A stretch of 63,365 nucleotides of DNA, taken from Verrucomicrobia subdivision 6 bacterium (GTDB taxonomy: Bacteria; Verrucomicrobiota; Verrucomicrobiia; Methylacidiphilales; Verrucolacustridaceae). The first letter of the stretch is position 1. Each line of letters begins with the position of its first letter. This document shows positions 3,561-21,540 of this stretch, piece after piece. The stretch is taken from the NCBI GenBank assembly GCA_945874125.1, contig CAMCFB010000003.1:1-63365 (forward strand), read 5' to 3'. The translations under genes and the position numbers were made by a program. The notes below the pieces were generated by a model that ran no database searches, had not been told where the DNA came from, and worked only from the letters and a program-made list of their open reading frames with translations.

Positions 3561-5014
3561 TACCGGTAGTGGGAGGGCTTGTAGGGTCCGCCGACGGGAA
3601 CTCCGAGGTAATCGGATTGATCCTTGGTCAGCTTGGTTAATTTCACGCCGATTTTCTCGAGGTGAAGTCGGGCGACCTCCTCGTCCAGATTTTTCGGCAG
3701 GACGTAGACGGCGGGCTTGTAGAGGGTGCGATTTTTCCACAGGTCGAGGGCAGCGAGGGTTTGGTTGGAGAAGCTCGCGCTCATGACAAAGCTGGGATGG
3801 CCGGTGGCGCATCCCAGATTGACGAGGCGACCTTCGGCCAAGAGATAGAGCTCGCGCCCATTGGCGAAGACGTATTTGTCGAGCTGGGGCTTGATGTTGA
3901 CCCGGCGAACTCCGGCGTGGGTGTTCAGCTTGTCGACTTGGATTTCGTTGTCGAAGTGGCCGATGTTGGCCACGACGGCTTGGTCTTTCATTTGGGTCAT
4001 GTGCTCCAAGGTGATGACATCCTTGTTTCCGGTCGTGGTGATATAGATGTCAGCGCGACCGAGGGTATCTTCCAGGGTGGTGACTTCAAAGCCTTCCATG
4101 GCGGCCTGGAGGGCATTGATGGGATCAATCTCAGTGACGATAACGCGAGCGCCTTGGCCGCGAAGTGACTGGGCGGAACCTTTGCCGACGTCTCCGTAGC
4201 CACAGACAACGGCGACTTTGCCTGAGATCATGACGTCGAGAGCACGATTCAATCCGTCGACGAGGGAGTGGCGGCAACCGTAGAGATTGTCGAACTTAGT
4301 TTTGGTGACCGAGTCATTCACATTGAAGGCGGGAACGAGAAGTTTCCCGATCTCTTGTAGTTTATAGAGGCGGTGAACACCCGTGGTGGTTTCCTCGGCG
4401 ACGCCTTTCCACTCTTGGACGAGGGCATGGAAAATATTGGGATGTTCCGCATGAACCTTCTTCAGAAGATTTTTGATGACCTTTTCTTCTTCGCTCGAGC
4501 TGGGGGTATTGACCCAACCATCGCCGTTTTCCAGTTCATAACCTTTGTGCAGGAAAAGGGTGACATCGCCCCCGTCATCGATGACGAGTTGGGGTCCAAG
4601 ACCTTGGGGGTTGAGGATCGCTTTCCAAGTGCAGTCCCAGTACTCCTCGAGCGTTTCCCCTTTCCAAGCGAATACGGGAATACCCGTGGCGGCGATGGCG
4701 GCGGCCGCTTGGTCTTGGGTGGAGAAGATATTGCAGCTCGCCCAGCGGACGTCGGCCCCGAGCTCGACAAATGTTTCGATTAAAACGGCAGTTTGAATCG
4801 TCATGTGAAGGGAGCCCGTGACGCGAACACCGGCGAGGGGTTTGCCCTTGGCATACTTTTCGCGGATGGACATGAGACCGGGCATTTCCTTTTCCGCGAT
4901 TTGAATTTCTTTCCGTCCGAATTCCGCCAGCGAGATATCCTTCACTTTGTATTCGGGGGCGGTTTTGGTTGCTTTGGATGGTTTAGATTTAGGTTCGAGG
5001 GTGGCAGTGGTCAT
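3557..5014 (-). CDS. ahcY: Adenosylhomocysteinase
   Basis: Full-length [48 protein letters not shown]-term PYKPSHYRY. Confidence 0.98.
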
Positions 5015-6302: not shown

Positions 6303-7226
6303 ATGAGTAACCGTGTGAAGCTTCTGGGGGCTTTGGCCGACCCAACTCGCCTGCGGATTTTGGCGGCGTTACGGGAGAACGAGCTTTCGGTGGCGGAGCT
6401 GCAGGAGGTTTTAGGGGTCGGGCAATCGAGAATTTCAAACCATTTATCGTTGCTCAAGTCGGTCGGGCTGTTGAGGGATCGGAGGGAGGGACAACGAGCG
6501 TACTATCGGCGGGCGGAGATGGGGCGAGAGATCTGGTCGTTGGCGGAGGGAGCGGCGGGGGAGTTGGGAACGGAGGCGCGGGATGGGGAGGCGTTGCGGC
6601 GTGTGTTGGGGCAACGGCAGGAGAAGTCGAAGCGATATTTTGATGCGGTGGCGGGGCGCTTGGGCAAAAAGTATTGTCCGGGACGCTCGTGGGAGGCGGT
6701 GGGGCGTCTGCTGCTGACCTTGGCGCCGAGGCAGGTGTATGCCGATTTAGGTGCGGGGGAGGGATTGATTTCTCAACTTCTGGCCGCTCGGGCGAAGAAG
6801 GTGATTGCGGTGGATCACTCGCCTCGAATGGTGGAGGTGGGGCGAGATTTGGCCAAGCGAAGCGGGTTAAAGAATTTGGAGTATCGGTTGGGGGACATGG
6901 ATCACCCACCCATTCGGCCTGGATCGGTGGATGTGGCCATTTTGAGTCAGGCACTGCATCACGCGGTACATCCTCCTCGAGCACTCGAGGCAGCGTGGAA
7001 AATTCTTCGGCCTGGGGGCACGCTTCTGGTTTTAGATCTGGTGGAGCATTCGTTTGAGGCCGCACGAGAGATGTATGCGGATGTGTGGCTGGGGTTTTCT
7101 CCGGCGGAGTTAGCGCGGCTGCTGCGAGAGGCAAAATTTGAAGGGGTGTCGGTTGAGGTGGTAGCCAAAGAGAAGGAGGGTCCCGGGTTTCAAACCTTGC
7201 TGGCGGTAGGAAGTAGGCCTGATTAG
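6303..7226 (+). CDS. ArsR-family HTH regulator fused to SAM-dependent methyltransferase domain
   Basis: N-term winged helix LADPTRLRILAALRENELSVAELQEVLGVGQSRISNHLSLLK; C-term methyltransferase YADLGAGEGLISQLLA...DMDHPPIRPGSVDVAILSQALHHA. Confidence 0.9.
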   Translation: MSNRVKLLGALADPTRLRILAALRENELSVAELQEVLGVGQSRISNHLSLLKSVGLLRDRREGQRAYYRRAEMGREIWSLAEGAAGELGTEARDGEALRRVLGQRQEKSKRYFDAVAGRLGKKYCPGRSWEAVGRLLLTLAPRQVYADLGAGEGLISQLLAARAKKVIAVDHSPRMVEVGRDLAKRSGLKNLEYRLGDMDHPPIRPGSVDVAILSQALHHAVHPPRALEAAWKILRPGGTLLVLDLVEHSFEAAREMYADVWLGFSPAELARLLREAKFEGVSVEVVAKEKEGPGFQTLLAVGSRPD

Positions 7227-7363: not shown

Positions 7364-7432
7364 AAGAATCAATCGATAGGGTTTCAACTACCGGAGGCGA
7401 TCCGCGGCTTTGCTCTCACCTTCTCTGAATCC

Positions 7433-7676
7433 GATTTCTAGAAGCACCTTCTAAACCATTGGCTACCAACAGCTTGTATGACCTACGACCCCACGTAAGA
7501 TATTGGCAATCAGCTGTTTACATGGGGGTTTTTATGGGGTGACCTACGACCCCAATATTAAAAAACTGCCTTGTAAAGTGTTCTTATGCAACAGCTTGCA
7601 AGACCTACGACCCCACGCAAGATGTTGACAATTAGTGGTTTGCAGGGGTGTTTTTAGGTAGTGACCTACGACCCCA
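7433..7676 (+). repeat. Locus A: R-motif array (GACCTACGACCCCA x4, exact 61-nt period), two tandem 122-bp hairpin units
   Basis: R copies at 7480-7493, 7541-7554, 7602-7615, 7663-7676; 47-nt segments alternate Y/X; Y-R-X folds with R in the loop. Confidence 0.9.
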
Positions 7677-8502
7677 AGGTTGGGATTTTGGGGATGAAAC
7701 CAGATTGGTGGGCGCGGGAGAAAAATTCTTTGAGGCCAGCCCGCCCTCTTTCACCGAAATCGAGGGTTAGATCGTTGACGTACATGCCGATGAATTGGTC
7801 GGTGCGTTTTTCATCCATTCCGCGACTTAAAGGCAAGGCGTGGCGGACACCCGCTTGCCGGTGGTTAAGCGCATAGTGCACGCTTTCCCGTAAGGTTTCG
7901 GTCACGGAGGAGATCACCTCGGCGCCTAGCTTTTTTCGAACCACGTTTCCTCCAAGGGGAAGAGGTAATCCGTGGGTCTCTTTGGCCCACCAGACGCCCA
8001 AATCCTCACACAAGGTGAAGCCCTCTTCGGAGTAGGTGAGTTGACCCTCATGTATAATAATTCCAGCATCAATCCTCCCCGAGAGAATTTCCTCCTGAAT
8101 TTTATCGAAAGGAAGATTGATCGCTTGAAAAGAGCCGTGGGGGAGTCCTAAGTAAAGTTGGAGAGTGAGGTAAGCGCTGGTCAGGAGTCCGGGCACACCA
8201 ATTCTCACTTTTTTCATCGTTTCGCGGTCGATTTTTCTTTTGGCTACCAAGCAGGGACCATAGCCATCGCCAAAGCTGGCGCCGCAGGGCAAAAGCGCGT
8301 AGCTGTCCGCAATCGTGGTGTAAGCGTGAAAGGAGACGGCCGAGATGTCCAACTCCTGGGCCTGACAACGAAGATTGAGGGTCTCGATATCCTGCAAAAT
8401 ATGGGTGAATTCGTGGCCACGCAGGTTCACCAGATTTTTTGCCATGGCGTAAAACATGAACGCATCGTCCGCATCGGGGCTATGGCCCAAGGTAAGTTTC
8501 AT
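7666..8502 (-). CDS. mqnD: 1,4-dihydroxy-6-naphthoate synthase (futalosine menaquinone pathway)
   Basis: MKLTLGHSPDADDAFMFYAM...LDISAVSFHAY...YGPCLVAK...GIIIHEGQLTY. Confidence 0.9.
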   Translation of the reverse strand: MKLTLGHSPDADDAFMFYAMAKNLVNLRGHEFTHILQDIETLNLRCQAQELDISAVSFHAYTTIADSYALLPCGASFGDGYGPCLVAKRKIDRETMKKVRIGVPGLLTSAYLTLQLYLGLPHGSFQAINLPFDKIQEEILSGRIDAGIIIHEGQLTYSEEGFTLCEDLGVWWAKETHGLPLPLGGNVVRKKLGAEVISSVTETLRESVHYALNHRQAGVRHALPLSRGMDEKRTDQFIGMYVNDLTLDFGERGRAGLKEFFSRAHQSGFIPKIPTLGS

Positions 8503-8547
8503 GTGTCGAATGGTAGCGAGGAGGAGTAGGTGGAACGAGCCGGCAGT

Positions 8548-8772
8548 CTAGTTGTAGTCGTCTTTGGTAACGGAGGCGGCATCTCGGGATCCCAGAATCT
8601 CTGCTTGAAGGATGACGCGGGTCATAGCCTCGTCAAAGCGATAGGCGTGGCAGTTGGGACAGAGGAGAGCTTTCTTTAAGACAATGCTCCCGCAGCCCTC
8701 GCAGACTTTATAGTCCATCGGGTGATTCAAAATCTTGGCCGCGGCCGCGGCCCGGGGCGATGCTTCTCCCAT
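8548..8772 (-). CDS. Small zinc-ribbon protein
   Basis: CEGCGSIVLKKALLCPNCHAYRFD (two CxxC). Confidence 0.7.
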   Translation of the reverse strand: MGEASPRAAAAAKILNHPMDYKVCEGCGSIVLKKALLCPNCHAYRFDEAMTRVILQAEILGSRDAASVTKDDYN

Positions 8773-8844
8773 GGGCGGAAGGTAATCACCCGCAGAGGCA
8801 CGGCAAGAGCTTCGCGAAAGAAAAAAATCGGGTAGGATGAGGAG

Positions 8845-9309
8845 ATGTCGAAAAAAGCAAGCCGGATTTCTTCATTATGGGATGGGGTGGAGTCTCGGGG
8901 TCGGGATGTGCGATTCGCGGCGTATTTCCATCATTTCAACCTTGGCGATTACTATGAGGCGCACGATGTTTTAGAGTCGCTCTGGTTAGAGGAGGGGCGC
9001 GGGGCCAAAGGAGCGGCGTTTTATCAAGGGTTGATTCAGCTGGCGGGGGCGTTTGTGCATCTACGAAAACATTATGAAAATCCCACTCACCCCGTCCATC
9101 AGCAAAGGCTACCCCCCGCCTATCGGCTCTTGGGGTTGGCCGAAGCCAATCTCTCTGGCTACGGAGCGGTGTGGGAGGGTGTGAAGATTCAGGACATCGT
9201 GGGGTTGGCCCATGGAGCACGATCCGCCTTAACCAAGGACAACTTCACGCGAAATCCTTGGAGCCCAAGCTTAGGGCCAAGACTTTCTTTGCCCGAAAAA
9301 CTGCACTAG
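8845..9309 (+). CDS. DUF309 family protein
   Basis: FNLGDYYEAHDVLESLWLEEGRGAKGAAFYQGLIQLAGAFVH motif. Confidence 0.8.
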   Translation: MSKKASRISSLWDGVESRGRDVRFAAYFHHFNLGDYYEAHDVLESLWLEEGRGAKGAAFYQGLIQLAGAFVHLRKHYENPTHPVHQQRLPPAYRLLGLAEANLSGYGAVWEGVKIQDIVGLAHGARSALTKDNFTRNPWSPSLGPRLSLPEKLH

Positions 9310-9974
9310 TCGTCTTTTTTCTTTAAGCCATGGCCCTCCACGGCTTCGGTGAATTTTTCGGACACGCTGTCGGCTAGACGATCAATCTGCATAGATTCTT
9401 TCAACCCCGTGCTGCTGGCAATGAAGTTGCCTACTTTGGCGAAGGGGCTGAGTCCTGGTCCTGGGGCGATTTTGCCTTTGGCCGAGCAGTTGTAGACGAG
9501 AAAAGGTTGGGTGATGGGGTGGGTGGAATCGGCCACTGAAATGACGATCCCCACGACGGGATTGTCAGTGCCCAACATTTTTTTCCCTGGATCTAGGTTC
9601 ACCACATTTCCTTCCAGTTTCCACCCATCGGTCGGGACAGGAGAGGAGGAGGTCCAAACTTGCGCCGGCAGATCGGCATCTTTCATTTTTTCCACGATCG
9701 AGGCGGTGATATCGGTTTTGAGGTCGGCTAACTTCTTTCGTGTTTCCTCCTCGTCGTCGGACGGGAGAATCGAAATTCCCTGTTCGTTCTTCTTCTTGGC
9801 ATCGGCGATCGCGCCGGGGTCAATCTTCACGGGGAGGATATAAATCTTTTTGGCCATTTCGGTCGGCCAGACAATCGCGCCAGCGGGGACCGCTTCGGCA
9901 GTTTTGACGGGTTCGTCGGCGGCGGTGCAGGACAAGCAACTCAGGAGGAGTGCCAGAGGGATGGATTTAATCAC
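9306..9974 (-). CDS. Putative secreted lipoprotein, DUF4410-like
   Basis: Probable GTG start giving signal peptide VIKSIPLALLLSCLSCTAADEP; overlaps yajQ stop. Confidence 0.6.
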   Translation of the reverse strand: MIKSIPLALLLSCLSCTAADEPVKTAEAVPAGAIVWPTEMAKKIYILPVKIDPGAIADAKKKNEQGISILPSDDEEETRKKLADLKTDITASIVEKMKDADLPAQVWTSSSPVPTDGWKLEGNVVNLDPGKKMLGTDNPVVGIVISVADSTHPITQPFLVYNCSAKGKIAPGPGLSPFAKVGNFIASSTGLKESMQIDRLADSVSEKFTEAVEGHGLKKKDD

Positions 9975-10452
9975 GAAAATTATTAAAGGAGAGGGAGACA
10001 GGGAAGTCGAGCGCGCGTAAGTGGGCGATGGCAGATTGCAGATCATCCCGATTCTTTCCCGAAACACGGACCTTGCCGCCCTCGATCGCGGCCTGAAGCT
10101 TCAATCCGGAGGAGCGAACCGATTGGCTGACCGACTTCGCATTTTCACCCGACAAGCCCTGTTTCAGGTGAATTTCCTGGCGGGCGCGACCGACCGAAGA
10201 GAGTTCCGCATCCTTGGTTTCCAAATTTTTCAAGGGAATCCCGCGCTTGGCCAATTTTCCAATGACGATTTCTCGGAGTGCATCCAGCTTAAATTGATCT
10301 TTGGCTGATAAGACGAGTTTCTCCTTCTCCTCCGCGATTTCCCACTCCACGCCTTTAAAATCGAACCGGCTGGCGAGTTCTTTGCGCGCCATCAGAAGAG
10401 CATTGGCCAGCTCCGCCATATCAATCTCGGAAACAACGTCAAAAGATGGCAT
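9967..10452 (-). CDS. yajQ: YajQ family nucleotide-binding protein
   Basis: MPSFDVVSEIDMAELANALLMARKELASRFDFKGVEWEI. Confidence 0.95.
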   Translation of the reverse strand: MPSFDVVSEIDMAELANALLMARKELASRFDFKGVEWEIAEEKEKLVLSAKDQFKLDALREIVIGKLAKRGIPLKNLETKDAELSSVGRARQEIHLKQGLSGENAKSVSQSVRSSGLKLQAAIEGGKVRVSGKNRDDLQSAIAHLRALDFPVSLSFNNFRD

Positions 10453-10458
10453 ACAGGT

Positions 10459-13089
10459 TTACTTTTTAGGGGAAGCGACCTGAATGTCCAACTGTCCATC
10501 CTTGTAGGCCAAGGTAAGTGCGGACCCATCGGGAATGTCGCCCGCAAGAAGCTTACGGGAGAGACGGGTTTCTACTTCACGCTGGAGGTACCGTTTCAGG
10601 GGGCGGGCTCCGTAAACGGGGTCGTACCCTTCCCGCGCGATGTGCTCCCGTGCGGAGTCGGATAGGTCGAGGGAGAGGCGCCTTTCCCCCAAGCGTTGGC
10701 GAAGCAGATTGAGGAGAAGATCCACGATTTTCTTAATTTCATTCAGGGTGAGCGGTTTAAAGAGAACGATTTCGTCCACCCGATTCAAAAACTCGGGGCG
10801 AAAATGTTTGCGAAGCTCTGCCATAACCGATTTCCGTGCTTTCTCGGTGATTTCACCTTTGGAATCGAGCCCCTCCATCAGGAGAGGAGAGCCAATATTG
10901 GACGTCATAATGATGAGCGTATTTTTAAAATCTACCGTGCGACCTTGGCTATCGGTTAGACGACCGTCATCGAGGATCTGCAGGAATGTATTAAAGACAT
11001 CGGCATGGGCCTTTTCGATCTCATCAAAAAGGATAACGCAGTAGGGGCGGCGACGAACGGCCTCGGTCAGTTGCCCACCCTCTTCGTACCCGACATAGCC
11101 GGGAGGCGCGCCGATGAGACGCGAGACCGCGTGCTTCTCCATATACTCGGACATATCGATGCGAATGACCGCGTCCTCACTGTCAAACAGGGTGGAGGCC
11201 AACGCCTTGGCCAACTCGGTTTTGCCGACGCCGGTGGGCCCAAGAAAAAGAAAGGAGCCGATCGGTCGTTTGGGATCCTTCAGTCCAGAGCGGGCCCGAA
11301 CGACGGCGTCGGCCACGGCTTGGACGGCCTCGTCTTGGCCAATGACCCGTTCGTGCAAAATTTTATCCAGTCGCAGTAGTTTATCCTTTTCTCCCTCGAG
11401 CAAACGGGTGACAGGGATTCCCGTCCAACGGGCCACCACCTGTCCGACCTCCTCGGCGGTAACCTCCTCGCGCACGAGACGAGGTTTGGCATCCTTTTCT
11501 TTGTCCTTCGTTTCAGCGGCGGCTTCCGCGTCCTTGAGCTTCTTCTCTAGCTCGGGAAGTTTCCCATACTGCAGCTCGGCGACTTGGTTCAGGTCGTAGG
11601 CCCGTTGTGCGGTTTCAATCTGCTGGCGGACTTTTTCGATTTCTTCCCGAACTTTTCGGGACGACTCCACCCCACCCCGTTCCGACTGCCAGCGGGCGTG
11701 CAGGGCATCCCGCTTGGCTTTGAGGTCGGCCAATTCTTTTTCCAAAGTCTTTAAGCGCTCTTTCGAAGCGGTATCTTTCTCCTTTTTGAGAGCCTCGCGT
11801 TCAATTTCCAGCTGGAGGATTCTGCGCTGAAGATTTTCCAGCTCTTCCGGCATCGATTCGATCTCGGTGCGTAGCTTGGCCGCGGCCTCATCGATCAGGT
11901 CGATCGCTTTGTCGGGCAGGAAACGGTCGGTGATATACCGGTTCGAAAGAGTGGCGGCGGCAACCAGAGCGGCGTCCTGGATCCGAACTCCGTGATGGAC
12001 CTCGTATCGCTCCCGAAGTCCGCGCAGAATGGAGACGGTGTCTTCGACGGAAGGTTCCTCCACCATGACCGGTTGGAAGCGGCGCTCCAGGGCGGCATCC
12101 TTTTCGATGTATTTGCGATACTCGTCCAAGGTAGTGGCCCCAATGCAGTGAAGTTCTCCACGGGCGAGCATGGGTTTAAGCATGTTGCCCGCATCCATCG
12201 CACCCTCGGCTTTGCCGGCGCCGACGATGGTGTGAATTTCATCAATGAAGAGAACAATGCCACCCTCGGCCTGAACGACTTCGTTTAGGACCGCTTTGAG
12301 CCGCTCCTCGAATTCGCCCCGAAACTTCGCCCCGGCCACCAAGGCGCCCAGGTCGAGGGCCACGATGCGTTTTTCCTTTAAGCTTTCCGGGACATCCCCG
12401 GCAACGATCCGGCGGGCGAGCCCTTCGACGATGGCGGTTTTGCCCACGCCCGGTTCACCAATCAGAACGGGATTATTTTTCGTTCGCCGAGAGAGAACTT
12501 GAACCGTGCGCCGGATCTCCTGATCCCGACCAATGACGGGATCCAGTTTGCCTTGGCGAGCGAGGCGGGTGAGGTCGCGGCCATATTTCTCGAGCGATTC
12601 GTAGGTGGCCTCCGGATTGGCGGAGGTAACGCGTTGGCCACCGCGAACGGTTTGCAGCGCGGCCAGAAGCTTGTCGCGGGTGATACCAAACTCCTTAAGG
12701 ACTTTGGCGGCGCCGGTATGGGATTCCTCCTTCAGGGCGGCCAGAAGAATATGCTCCACGCTGAGGTAATCGTCCTTCAGTTTGGAGGCCTCCTCGGCCG
12801 CCCGACCGAGGAGGGATTGGAGGCGAGGGGTAATCATGGTGCTGCCAGGCGAGGCGCCCGGACCGGAGACTTTGGGAAGTCGCGCGATTTCCGATTCAAG
12901 CCGCTCGGCAAATCGGGCGGGCTGGGCGCCAAGCTTTTCGATGAGCCGAGGAATGAGGCCGTCCGATTGGGCGGTGAGCGAGTGAAGGAGGTGTTCGACT
13001 TCGACCGCTTGGTGTCCTTGCTGGGCGGCGGTGGCTTGAGCCGAGGCGATTCCTTTTTGGGCGTTTTCGGTGAGCTTGTTTAGATCCAC
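10459..13089 (-). CDS. clpB: ATP-dependent chaperone ClpB
   Basis: Two AAA+ modules ([30 protein letters not shown]), middle coiled coil. Confidence 0.98.
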
Positions 13090-13132
13090 GGAGAAATTAT
13101 TGGTCAGAGATGGATTGAAGGCGAAGAGAAAA

Positions 13133-14164
13133 TTATCGGGTCAAGCGAAAGAGGAGTGAAGGAATCGCTGGAAAAATGCGGGCCAGATTCCAGAGGATGG
13201 AGCGGGGGATGGGATGGAAGAGTGCTTGCTGGAGCGGTCGGGCATGTCGCAGTCGGGGAGCGAAGGCGGAGTCGAGCCGTTGGGAGACTTCTTGGGTGGC
13301 GGCTGGCCAATTGATTTTGTCGGCCGCCCAATCGACGAGCGAGGGAGCGGCGAGGTGGGCCCCTTCCATTGCCATCGACATACCGTTTCCAGTGACGGGG
13401 GGAATCATAGTCAGGGAATCGCCGATGCGAATGCCGGAGCGGCCGGCGGCCTTTTGGGGAGAGAGAGAGAGGGCGGCGATGGAGCTAAAGGAAGACTCGT
13501 TCCATTCCGCCTGACGGAGCCGCTGGTGGAGGAGGGAAGTGGGATCAGGACAAAGCCAGCTTTTCCAAGAGGTGGCTAAATGGGGAATGGAGGTGCGAGA
13601 GCGAAAGAGGCCGCACACATTGACTTGCTGGTTCTCGATCTGGCAGAGCCCAATGTATCCGTGGGGAGAGAGATGCATTTCGAGGCCGGCTTGCAGGGTG
13701 ACATTGCGGGCATGGGCTTTGAGTCCAAACCAGCGCCAGCCGTTTTCGGTGGTGGAAGGTTGGCGGCCGGTGGCCAGAACAGTCCCCTCTTTGGTTTCTG
13801 GGGTCACGCGTTGGCCAAGGTGGATGACGCCACCCAGCTGGGTGAATTCCTGAACTAAAAACTGGTCGAACTCATAGCGGGAGAGGCAGAGGGCGGGCTG
13901 GGGAAGTGTGCGGCGGTGGAGGACGGAGGAGCCGAGCGCGAGGAGGATATCGCTGGCCTCGACGGCGCCCAATCGATGCAGGGCGGGACGAAGCCCGAGG
14001 GATTCGATGACGGAGAGGGCACGACCGCTGAGGTATTCCCCGCAGACCCGATGGCGAGGGTAGGTCCCCGCCTCATGGAGGGTGACCGGAACATTTTTTT
14101 GGCGGAGATGGATTCCGAGGGTAAGTCCGGCGAGGCCCCCTCCCAGGATGGTGATCGGCTTCAT
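13133..14164 (-). CDS. FAD-dependent oxidoreductase (geranylgeranyl-reductase/monooxygenase-like)
   Basis: [50 protein letters not shown] track extends further upstream but the natural ATG at 14164 overlaps the methyltransferase stop. Confidence 0.85.
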
Positions 14165-14856
14165 ACTTTTTTTGTGGCGGAAAAAAAGTGGGTGAAGAGA
14201 CCTGCCGGATGTTCCGTTAGATTCCAGTCGTTGGAGTGGGGCCAGAGGGCGGAGAGTTCCGGCGGGCGAAAGCCGGCTTGGACGCTGACGCGAGCATCGT
14301 GCTGGGTAACCAAGTTGCAAGCGAGGAGGGGGAGAAGACGGGATCCGAGGGCACCCGCCCAAGAGCGGCGGGGTTCGGCCGCGACGAAAACGGGGGAAAG
14401 GCGGGAGATTTTCATGAAAAGAGAGTGGAGAGAAGCATCGGAAAAGTGATGAAGAAAAAGATTGGTGAGGATGAGTTCGGTGGTTGGGGCGGAGTTGGCC
14501 CAATCGGCCGCGTCGGCGGAAATGATCGAGGGAAGCCAGTTTTGTCGGCGGAGATGCTCGAGCGTGGAGTCGGGAACGCAGGGTTGGCGATCGACAAAAA
14601 AAAGGCGGGCGCCGTGTCCGCCCTGGGGGAAGGCAGTTGGCAGGATCTGGCGGAGAAGATGACCATCCCCTGAACCGAGATCGACCAGGCTGGCGGGGGG
14701 TCGATCGGGATAGTGGGTCTGCCACCAGCGAAGCCAGAGGCGTGTTTGCCCAAGGATCGGGTGGAGACGGCGAAGATCGGCGCGACTGGCGATGGCGGTG
14801 GGATCGGAGGGAGGGAGGGAGTCGAGAAGTTCGGGGGTTAGTCTGCGCGGGCTCAT
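14161..14856 (-). CDS. SAM-dependent methyltransferase of type III PKS operon
   Basis: MSPRRLTPELLDSLPP...SLVDLGSGDGHLLRQILP; ATGA overlap with PKS stop. Confidence 0.82.
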   Translation of the reverse strand: MSPRRLTPELLDSLPPSDPTAIASRADLRRLHPILGQTRLWLRWWQTHYPDRPPASLVDLGSGDGHLLRQILPTAFPQGGHGARLFFVDRQPCVPDSTLEHLRRQNWLPSIISADAADWANSAPTTELILTNLFLHHFSDASLHSLFMKISRLSPVFVAAEPRRSWAGALGSRLLPLLACNLVTQHDARVSVQAGFRPPELSALWPHSNDWNLTEHPAGLFTHFFSATKKV

Positions 14857-15902
14857 GAGGTGACTTCGAGAAGGGCTCCGTAGCTGGAGAATCCTGCTCC
14901 GAAGGAGGCGAGCCACCACTTTCCGTCGGGCACTCCATTTTCGAGGGCGGATTGAAGGGCGAACAGGCAGGAGGGGCTGCTCATGTTTCCGTGTCGGCGC
15001 AGGACTTCGGAGCTGTGTTGCGTATCTTTTTCTTGAAGGGAAAACTCCTGACGAAGTGCGGCCAAGACATCGCGACCGCCGCCGTGCCAGATCCAACCGG
15101 AGATATTCTGGGGTTGCATGCCGGCCTGCTGGAAGACCGTGCGGGCGTGGCGGGCGGCGAGTTCGGGGACTTCGGGGGCGAGGAGGTTGCGGAGGAGACC
15201 TTGGCGATGGTCGAAGCGGAGAGAGTCGCGGTCCTTTGGTTCGAGATGGGAGACGGTTTTGAGTAGGCGAACGGTGCGTTTGGCGGGGGGAGGTTGGGCG
15301 GAAAGGATGGTGGCGGCGGCTCCGTCTCCAAAAAGGCAGGCACTGATGAGAACGCCGGGGTCGTCATCAAGGTAGGAGGCGGCGGAGCAGATTTCCACAC
15401 AGACGATGAGGGCGTGTTTGGCCAACCCGGAGGAGATGAGGGAGGAGGCTTGTTGAATGGCGGGCAGGGCAGCCCCGCAACCCAGGCCGACGAGGTCGAG
15501 AAAGGTGAGAGAGGGTTTCAGGCCGAGACTTTGGGAGAGGTAACTGGTCAGACCGGGGCAAAGGTATCCGGTGCAGGTGGCCACGAGGAGGGCATCGATT
15601 TGGGAAATGGGGAGGCCAGATTTTTCGATGGCTTGGCGGGCGGCGGTTTCGGCGAGGGTGGGGGCGTGCTTTTGGAAGCGGGCCATCATTTGGTCGGGCT
15701 CGAAAACGAAAGCGTCCCGCATTTTTTCTAAGGCGAAGTGTCGGGTTTCGATGCCGTTGCGGTTGCCGAGCACTTTGCGAAGGAGGGCACGGGAGCGAGG
15801 GGTGAGCTGGTGGTATTTGGGGGCTTGTTCGAGCGCGGTGAGGACTTCGGCTTGCGAGAAGGCGCGTGGGGGAACGGCGGTGCCAATGGAGTGGAGGTAC
15901 AC
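14853..15902 (-). CDS. Type III polyketide synthase (chalcone/stilbene synthase-like)
   Basis: Cys in DLVGLGCGAALPA, His in WIWHGGGRDVL, Asn in RRHGNMSSPS: complete Cys-His-Asn triad. Confidence 0.92.
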   Translation of the reverse strand: MYLHSIGTAVPPRAFSQAEVLTALEQAPKYHQLTPRSRALLRKVLGNRNGIETRHFALEKMRDAFVFEPDQMMARFQKHAPTLAETAARQAIEKSGLPISQIDALLVATCTGYLCPGLTSYLSQSLGLKPSLTFLDLVGLGCGAALPAIQQASSLISSGLAKHALIVCVEICSAASYLDDDPGVLISACLFGDGAAATILSAQPPPAKRTVRLLKTVSHLEPKDRDSLRFDHRQGLLRNLLAPEVPELAARHARTVFQQAGMQPQNISGWIWHGGGRDVLAALRQEFSLQEKDTQHSSEVLRRHGNMSSPSCLFALQSALENGVPDGKWWLASFGAGFSSYGALLEVTS

Positions 15903-15995
15903 GGTTTATTTTTTCTTGGAGAAGATATGGGTGAAAAGGGTGATGAAGGATGAAGCAAAGGAAGAGTAATGCAAAAGAAGTTCAATCCAAGAGAC

Positions 15996-16131
15996 GACCT
16001 ACGACCCCAAAATCAGAAAATGGCCTTATAACCCGTTGTCGGGCAATGACTTATTCGACCTACGACCCCCAATAAGTCGTTGTGGGACAAGGGGTTATGG
16101 GGCGGTTTTTTGGAAGTGACCTACGACCCCA
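15996..16131 (+). repeat. Locus B: R-Y-R-Y'-R element (GACCTACGACCCC x3, exact 61-nt period)
   Basis: R copies at 15996-16009, 16057-16069/70, 16118-16131; arms 16013-16055 and 16071-16113 pair at 39 of 43 positions. Confidence 0.93.
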
Positions 16132-19774: not shown

Positions 19775-21540
19775 GGGGTGAGGAGTGGGGTCCAGAGTTC
19801 GTCCAGATTCCAGATGAGGGAGCCGAGGGGCGGGATGCGAATATTTTTCCAGCGATCCTTGAGTCCGACGTAAGCGTTGGCGGTGACGAGGTAGATGTAG
19901 GGGGTTTCATCACTCATGATTTTTTGAACTTCATCAAAATATTTTTTTCGGGTGGGGTAGTCGAGGGTGTGGAGTTGATCGGACATGAGTTGATCGATAC
20001 GGGCCTCCCAGGGGGTGGCGGGAGTTTTTTGGTTCGGATACCATTGGTGAAGACGACCTTTGGAGGAGAAGACAGAAATGCCTCCCGCGGGGTCGCCTCC
20101 GCCCGTCAGGCCGAGCATGCCGGCTTCGTAGTCGTAGGAGTCTTGGATTTTTCCAACGAGGGTTCCGAAATCGAGAAAGGAGAGGTTTACGGTGATGCCG
20201 AGGTCCCGCATGTTCTCTTTGAAAGCGGTGGCCATATTGGCGCGGAGCTGATTTTCCTGATTGGTGTTGAGGGTGAACTCGACCACGTTTCCGAGACGGT
20301 CACGGAGTTTTCGATCTGGGCCAAGTTGGAAGCCGGCTTGGGCGAGCAGTTCTTTCGAGCGGGCGGGGTTGTAAGGGTACTGGGTGACGTTGGGGTTGTA
20401 CCATTTTTTGTTGGCGGGAGTTTCGGGTCCCCAGAGAGGTTGGCCACGGCCAAAAAGAACGCCGCGGACCAACCCTTCTCGGTCGATGCCGTGGGAGATG
20501 GCTTGGCGGAAGCGGCGGTCGGTGAACCACGTCAGTTTATGGGGAGCGACGAAAGGTTTTCCAGAGGTGTCTCGGCCGGGGTTTTGATTGAACCAGATAA
20601 AGCCGGTGTTGGGGGAGGGGCCGCGGTTGAAAACGGAGAATCCGTAGCGGGAGGCGTAGCGATCGATCCAGGCTACATTATCGGGGGAGAGACCCTCGGC
20701 GTCGGTTTGGCCGGTGGCAAAGGCGAGAGTGCTGGCGTTGGCGTCTTTGACCAGTTTGGTGACGAGGTAGTCGACATAGGGAAGGCGGACTCCTTGGGCA
20801 TCCGCGCGCCAGTAGTGGGGATTGGCTTCAAAGACGATTCGTTCGGCTGGTTGGTAGGAGCGAAGTCGAAAGGCGCCGGTGGCGAGAAGGCGGCGGGGTT
20901 CTTTTTGGGCCAGGCTGACGTTCCAGGCCTTGAGCAGAGAGCCATCGCGAAAGGCGGGTTCGAGTTCGTGCTTGGGCAGGAGCCCGACGCCGCCGACAGT
21001 TTCTAAAAAGGGAGCATAGATTTCGGGGGTGGTGAGGCGGACGGTCAGTTCGTCGATTTTCTCGATGGTAAATTTCTTTCCATCGACGGAGAGATCAAAG
21101 GCCGCGCGGTTGGGGAAGCGGGGGTCATAGATCGCTTGAAAGGTGAAGACCACATCATCAGCGGTAAAGGGGTGTCCGTCGGACCAAAGAACTCCGGGGC
21201 GAAGGTGAAAGGTAAAAGTTTTATTGTCGGGCGCGATTTGCCATCGAGAGGCGAGGCCAGGCTCGACCTCTTGGGTGACAGGGTTGTTGTGGACGAGGGA
21301 ATCGAGAAAAAGGCCGATGAACCCGCTGGAGGTGGCGTCTTCCGAGACGAGCGGGTTAAAGGTGGAGGGCTCGCCCGGGGTGGAGTCGATAAAGACCCCA
21401 CCCCGACGCCCAGGCTCGGCGCGGGAAGTGTCCAACCCTCGGGGAAGTGGATGGTTGGGGCGCACCTCTTTGGCTTTGGGAGCACAGGCTTGAGGGGTCA
21501 CGGCAACAAGCGCGAGGAGAAGCAAAGTGCGAAAGTGCAT
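19771..21540 (-). CDS. Oligopeptide-binding lipoprotein (SBP family 5)
   Basis: Lipobox-like MHFRTLLLLALVAVTPQACAPK; FHLRPGVLWSDGHPFTADDVVFTFQ; start adjusted from ORF track. Confidence 0.9.
   Translation of the reverse strand: MHFRTLLLLALVAVTPQACAPKAKEVRPNHPLPRGLDTSRAEPGRRGGVFIDSTPGEPSTFNPLVSEDATSSGFIGLFLDSLVHNNPVTQEVEPGLASRWQIAPDNKTFTFHLRPGVLWSDGHPFTADDVVFTFQAIYDPRFPNRAAFDLSVDGKKFTIEKIDELTVRLTTPEIYAPFLETVGGVGLLPKHELEPAFRDGSLLKAWNVSLAQKEPRRLLATGAFRLRSYQPAERIVFEANPHYWRADAQGVRLPYVDYLVTKLVKDANASTLAFATGQTDAEGLSPDNVAWIDRYASRYGFSVFNRGPSPNTGFIWFNQNPGRDTSGKPFVAPHKLTWFTDRRFRQAISHGIDREGLVRGVLFGRGQPLWGPETPANKKWYNPNVTQYPYNPARSKELLAQAGFQLGPDRKLRDRLGNVVEFTLNTNQENQLRANMATAFKENMRDLGITVNLSFLDFGTLVGKIQDSYDYEAGMLGLTGGGDPAGGISVFSSKGRLHQWYPNQKTPATPWEARIDQLMSDQLHTLDYPTRKKYFDEVQKIMSDETPYIYLVTANAYVGLKDRWKNIRIPPLGSLIWNLDELWTPLLTP

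Follow-up and report, generated by a model that had tools for sequence, protein, structure and literature searches.

Two intergenic loci in a 63,365-nt stretch of DNA from a Verrucomicrobia subdivision 6 bacterium (the window; contig CAMCFB010000003.1, forward strand) carry a 13-nt sequence, R, repeated in one orientation at a fixed phase, which raises the question of what kind of element R belongs to: a folded RNA, a chromosomal site for a host protein, or a piece of mobile DNA. Exact copies of R (GACCTACGACCCC) begin at 7480, 7541, 7602 and 7663 (locus A) and at 15996, 16057 and 16118 (locus B). A first reading, made from the sequence alone, had placed four and three copies at just these positions, had seen no others in the window by eye and had measured the five neighbouring intervals as 61 nt each. 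All of this was confirmed, the sole near-match in the window being an R-like site with two mismatches at 21121 on the minus strand. As that reading also held, the segments between R copies fall into two classes, Y and X, that align without gaps between the loci, and X is an imperfect reverse complement of Y; the arms measure 48 nt. The two loci are laid out as follows.

7432–7479, plus strand: Y arm belonging to locus A's outermost unit, keeping the 61-nt register ahead of the R at 7480
7480–7492, plus strand: R, exact
7493–7540, plus strand: X arm, locus A
7541–7553, plus strand: R, exact
7554–7601, plus strand: Y arm, locus A
7602–7614, plus strand: R, exact
7615–7662, plus strand: X arm, locus A
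7663–7675, plus strand: terminal R of locus A, exact
15996–16008, plus strand: R, exact, locus B
16009–16056, plus strand: Y arm, locus B
16057–16069, plus strand: R, exact, locus B, in the loop of a hairpin more stable than that of any other copy in this genome
16070–16117, plus strand: X arm with T-tract, locus B
16118–16130, plus strand: terminal R of locus B, exact

The outermost Y arm of locus A is matched by the unit sequence model R1 (G000:C3:7425–7537, where G000 is the window's genome), and the R that stood outside it (7419–7431) has been lost or has decayed. At the other end of the locus, the terminal R gives the TAG stop codon (7666–7668, minus strand) to the ORF at 7666–8502, and in the ortholog G004:C30 the terminal R is again followed by the same gene end.

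G000 is 1.38 Mb and 80% complete; all genomes compared are draft assemblies, and the named ones are MAGs. We found 45 exact copies of R in it (21 forward, 24 reverse), spread over about 20 intergenic loci with the order (R-Y-R-X)n, the last R being optional, and a reversed-pattern control gave no copies. The two loci of the window thus belong to a genome-wide family. A sequence model built from 28 units found units in 14 of 21 same-genus genomes (Verrucomicrobia subdivision 6, BACL9 group) and none in the other seven, so that further copies, which the sequence-only reading had named as support for a family, exist both in the host and among its relatives. All matches of an exact two-R scan of 84,980 species were to MAGs named Verrucomicrobia subdivision 6, apart from a single uncultured Verrucomicrobia MAG; the R pair is present in none of 39 other genomes of the order, and viral contigs searched for paired R gave no match. 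The motif GACCTACGACCCC did not appear in the published literature examined. Some single R-like matches are chance occurrences in coding DNA (a carB-like gene in L185 and L195; L194).

R has two main forms, ACCT-AC-GACCCC (the ACG variant) and ACCT-CT-GACCCC (the CT variant, GACCTCTGACCCC). Most genomes use one of them, and G004, G010 and G012 have both. The spacing of R is 61 nt in most genomes, 62 nt in G018 and 89–90 nt in the CT-type loci of G004. Many copies in G018 and G004 are R-Y-R without a full X, and the unit measures 122 nt as R-Y-R-X in G000 and 62 or about 90 nt as R-Y-R in some sister species. A further variant with 83–84 nt between R copies was seen at three loci of G008 (L140, L153 and L164).

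The sequence-only reading took the constant phase and layout as the signature of a selected structured element fitting no known family. The family is indeed real, conserved, phased, multi-copy and intergenic, but the data do not support a folded structure as the target of selection. Y pairs with the X of its own unit no better than with the X of other units (26.7 versus 26.6 Watson–Crick pairs of 48, permutation p = 0.48; p = 0.24 with GU pairs counted), and swapping X arms between units left the folding energy in place (−29.3 versus −29.4 kcal/mol, p = 0.84). Over the 28 units, pairing in the Y:X helix reaches 68.2% against 66.7% in shuffled sequences, a 1.5-point excess that 6 of 500 shuffles attain and that the relatedness of the sequences inflates, and the intra-arm dyad is 62.0% paired against 62.9%. 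The search for covariation that the reading had proposed therefore revealed none between the arms; RNAalifold returned zero consensus pairs for the units and no consensus hairpin. No Rfam family matched at the repeats, which agrees with the claim that they fit no known RNA. With Rfam, Y:X and intra-arm dyad covariation and arm-swap folding all negative, we rejected an RNA element. A few copies are near-perfect palindromes, locus B among them (folding z −5.3), and the R of locus B at 16057 does sit in a hairpin loop, as had been noted; several other copies fold like shuffled DNA. R is nonetheless more than a hairpin loop, because it brackets whole-unit gains and losses, lies at the edges of a transposase gene and is oriented with replication, as described below. 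What is constant in all copies is R, a few dyad-placed bases in each arm (columns A35–T57, A36–T56 and T42–A50; A79–T101, A80–T100 and T86–A94) and A/T tracts. The pattern suggests that a protein recognises them.

A related proposal is a structured RNA acting as a bidirectional intrinsic terminator, composed of an A-tract, a GC stem, R as the loop and a T-tract, and selected at gene 3′ ends. It would account for the location of most sites between gene ends, convergent or tandem (there are two divergent cases), for the T-tract that follows a G-rich stretch, for the strong folding of single copies such as locus B and for the stop codon supplied by R at locus A. We consider it unlikely, however, as the arms show no covariation, several copies fold no better than their shuffles, Rfam gives no match, R-Y-R forms occur without X, and the orientation of R tracks replication rather than transcription. 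Any effect of R elements on gene 3′ ends would be secondary.

Orthologous sites show how the units behave. Where G000 has locus B, its near relative G009 has one R (GACCTACGACTCC, one mismatch) and no unit, and at the C24 site G009 has one exact R. The two-unit C22 site of G000 corresponds to one exact R in G001 and G012 and to an R with one or two mismatches in G002, G003, G004 and G010. At the C24 site, six relatives lack both R and unit, and G012 has two units; locus A is common to G000 and G004; and the C18 and C26 sites have diverged too far for clean insertion boundaries. From the single-R sites set against their filled orthologs we conclude that units come and go as whole R-to-R segments. 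The single-R sites could arise by enzymatic excision or equally by slippage between 13-bp direct repeats.

The orientation of R follows the replication strand. Judged by the GC skew of the flanks, R is carried by the G-rich strand at 18 of 19 loci of G000 and at 37 of 39 loci in seven relatives, giving 55 of 58 combined (p = 2e-13, a value made optimistic by loci that sister species share). The test used roughly 1.5–20 kb of flank per locus, with leading and lagging strands assigned from GC skew and not from a mapped origin. Since R itself is C-rich, base composition works against the observed bias. Genes next to R run in its direction in only about 17 of 38 cases. The single exception in G000 is L035, and L044 was excluded from the test. 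At these two loci, which lie outside the window, R occurs in mixed orientation (L035 on C19, 4001–4135; L044 on C31, minus 3789–3923 and plus 4001–4135), the patterns being R-Y-R-X with an inverted R after it, and units in which the middle R runs opposite to the outer copies. By the usual rule the G-rich strand is the leading strand and has the same sequence as the lagging-strand template. The orientation of IS200/IS605 elements likewise follows replication, through the lagging-strand template (PMC5371812).

The same bias would be expected of a polar chromosomal site for a host protein, a KOPS-like or other replication or segregation motif whose orientation is under selection, and the persistence of exact R at orthologous loci whose arms drift would suit such a site. 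Yet units were not found in 7 of the 21 same-genus genomes searched, the two main forms of R vary between species, the units are gained and lost whole and build arrays, and the repeats are tied to a transposase gene. A host-protein site is thus very unlikely to be the explanation.

That transposase gene lies at G000:C10, where R arrays stand on both sides of a 191-aa ORF, 8 and about 67 bp away. The ORF scores above the cut-off of NF047646.1, the NCBIfam model of REP-associated tyrosine transposases (2e-25), and matches Pfam Y1_Tnp (PF01797, 2.8e-12), and across nine homologs the HUH motif (NHWH) and the Tyr of YIE.N are invariant; a sequence search for a solved structure of this RAYT (REP-associated Y1/HUH tyrosine transposase) found none. 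RAYTs of G002, G004 and G018 are 53–59% identical to it. R arrays flank the gene on both sides at G000:C10, G004:C111 and G018:C52 and upstream only at G002:C77, and those of G002, G004 and G018 are of the CT variant. The RAYT and its arrays are not at a fixed place, as the gene neighbouring the G000 RAYT is followed by neither R nor RAYT in G001, G004 and G010. More distant RAYTs of the genus have no R at their edges, and some have other palindromes. RAYTs were detected in only some of the R-bearing MAGs; G013, 96% complete, has many units and no detected RAYT of the R-linked clade.

Several smaller observations concern these genes. At G000:C10 the outermost unit by the RAYT (L033, minus 3879–4000) retains R as GACCTCTGACCCC and GACCTCAGACCCC, alongside units of the ACG type, and looks like a relic of an R switch; the G002 RAYT has an almost identical unit next to it. 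Another RAYT clade of the genus (L093 in G012:C3, L100 in G004:C1) has a different palindrome, GCTCGCAGCATGCTGC..., about 80–130 bp to either side.

Taken together, a multi-copy family, a RAYT flanked by R arrays, a strand bias, single-R sites and arms without covariation lead us to conclude that the R units are probably mobile DNA of the RAYT kind, small and non-autonomous elements on which a RAYT acts at R. We infer that the RAYT of the G000:C10 clade is the enzyme that moves them, that R is the site of cleavage and joining, and that movement passes through single-stranded intermediates with the cut placed at R. In the mechanism we propose, the lagging-strand template would become single-stranded at the replication fork and the cognate RAYT would bind an arm. 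It would then cut and rejoin at R, so that the segment between two R copies is released or inserted. Excision would join the flanks and leave one R behind, and insertion beside an existing R would let arrays grow by whole units in one orientation. Several points weigh against the RAYT reading. G013 holds units without a detected RAYT of the clade, RAYTs turned up in only some R-bearing MAGs, slippage could account for the single-R sites, old orthologous copies with exact R and drifting arms could point to a host function, and the simple cut-at-R model fails to explain the X arm of G000, which usually has no R beyond it.

It is highly improbable that another enzyme, a tyrosine recombinase or DDE transposase, mobilises the units, two of which would carry the RAYT along between them. 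Site-specific recombination would also account for bracketing by direct repeats and for single-R sites, and G013 has units without a RAYT of the R-linked clade, but R arrays border the genes of one RAYT clade in four species, RAYTs across the order have similar GGGGTCAG ends, the strong replication-strand bias fits HUH enzymes, and an unsystematic look noticed no other enzyme gene between R copies. Integron attC-like sites (no GTTRRRY box recognised) and CRISPR (the 48-nt segments form two classes related to each other, rather than a set of unrelated spacers) were dropped on inspection, and Tn3-type ends (GGGG...TAAG), considered by eye only, were dropped once the RAYT link was found.

The RAYT reading places R closest to the TIRtrons, or TIRYTs, Y1 transposases that mostly fall in subclass 2.1 and have terminal inverted repeats (PMC3733652, PMC6006769), for which Di Nocera et al. 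published the motif GGGGWSAS (PMC3733652), discussed for subclass 2.1 by Quentin et al. (PMC6006769). In both, a RAYT-type HUH-Tyr transposase adjoins the repeat and repeats are spread through the genome as singles, dimers and arrays. The reverse complement of the CT-variant R begins GGGGTCAG, a tip that matches GGGGWSAS, and in other families of the order the inverted repeats of RAYTs begin GGGGTCAG, GGGGTCAA or GGGGACAG (L236, L237, L240, L241 and L242), ends that are classic TIRYT-type; the outgroup RAYTs carry true GGGGTCAG inverted repeats. The R family differs in that both edges of gene and unit carry direct tips where TIRYTs carry inverted ones, in that the tip occurs twice, on either side of a dyad-symmetric arm and at a fixed phase of 61 nt, and in that the ACG variant of G000 (tip GGGGTCGT) departs from GGGGWSAS. 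For the large TIRYT-type subclass no REP-like sequences were found and only inverted repeats were reported (PMC6006769). The RAYT of G000 is 191 aa long, against 238 aa published for subclass 2.1 (PMC6006769). As the CT variant reads GGGGTCAG on its other strand, R is best seen as a TIRYT tip used as a direct repeat.

With REPs, BIMEs and REPINs (PMC3733652, PMC8266576) the family shares an intergenic position near gene ends, alternating arms, a RAYT nearby, GTAG on the C-rich strand of the ACG variant, and the ability of R to supply a TAG stop. Unlike them, it has no 20–40-nt hairpin with a tag at its foot, and its 13-bp direct repeats keep one orientation while the arms alternate; the CT variant lacks GTAG, which therefore does not define the family. 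A CT near a GTAG-tagged hairpin is where TnpAREP enzymes cut (PMC8266576), and the invariant CT of R on the proposed strand recalls this cut site, a parallel that is only suggestive. With IS200/IS605 elements (IS608, ISDra2) the R family would share Y1/HUH chemistry and an orientation linked to the lagging template; precise joining with the target sequence left intact would be expected. R elements, in contrast, are only 61–122 nt and mostly geneless, showed no subterminal hairpin, and have a proposed cleavage and target sequence of 13 nt versus about 4. Because its repeats are direct where those of TIRYTs are inverted, and because it lacks the GTAG-tagged hairpin of REPs, we file the family as neither, although it most likely works like them. 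It would represent a direct-repeat form of the RAYT/TIRYT kind, in which the direct repeats are new and the kind is known.

More tentatively, a RAYT/TIRYT lineage may have converted its inverted tips to direct repeats of 13 nt, each at once a cleavage site, a joint and a preferred target, with units stacked or removed singly beside R in replication orientation and with R switching genome-wide (ACG versus CT) together with its enzyme. If so, R units would resemble cassettes in a miniature array operated by a single-strand transposase. How RAYTs spread repeats is still poorly understood, and the R family offers a compact, countable substrate for TIRYT-type RAYTs, with a 13-nt junction, single-R sites and whole-unit steps, to which it adds a natural two-base R switch between species and a strong replication-strand signal. 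This puts cleavage, joining and specificity within reach of direct tests that use short oligonucleotides and a single small protein.

The genes near the two loci of the window were also looked at by sequence. On the minus strand at 13133–15902, a type III polyketide synthase-like gene (14853–15902) is followed downstream by methyltransferase- and FAD oxidoreductase-like ORFs. On the plus strand, the ORF at 6303–7226 resembles an ArsR-type regulator fused to a methyltransferase-like domain, and it adjoins genes resembling S-adenosylmethionine synthase and adenosylhomocysteinase.
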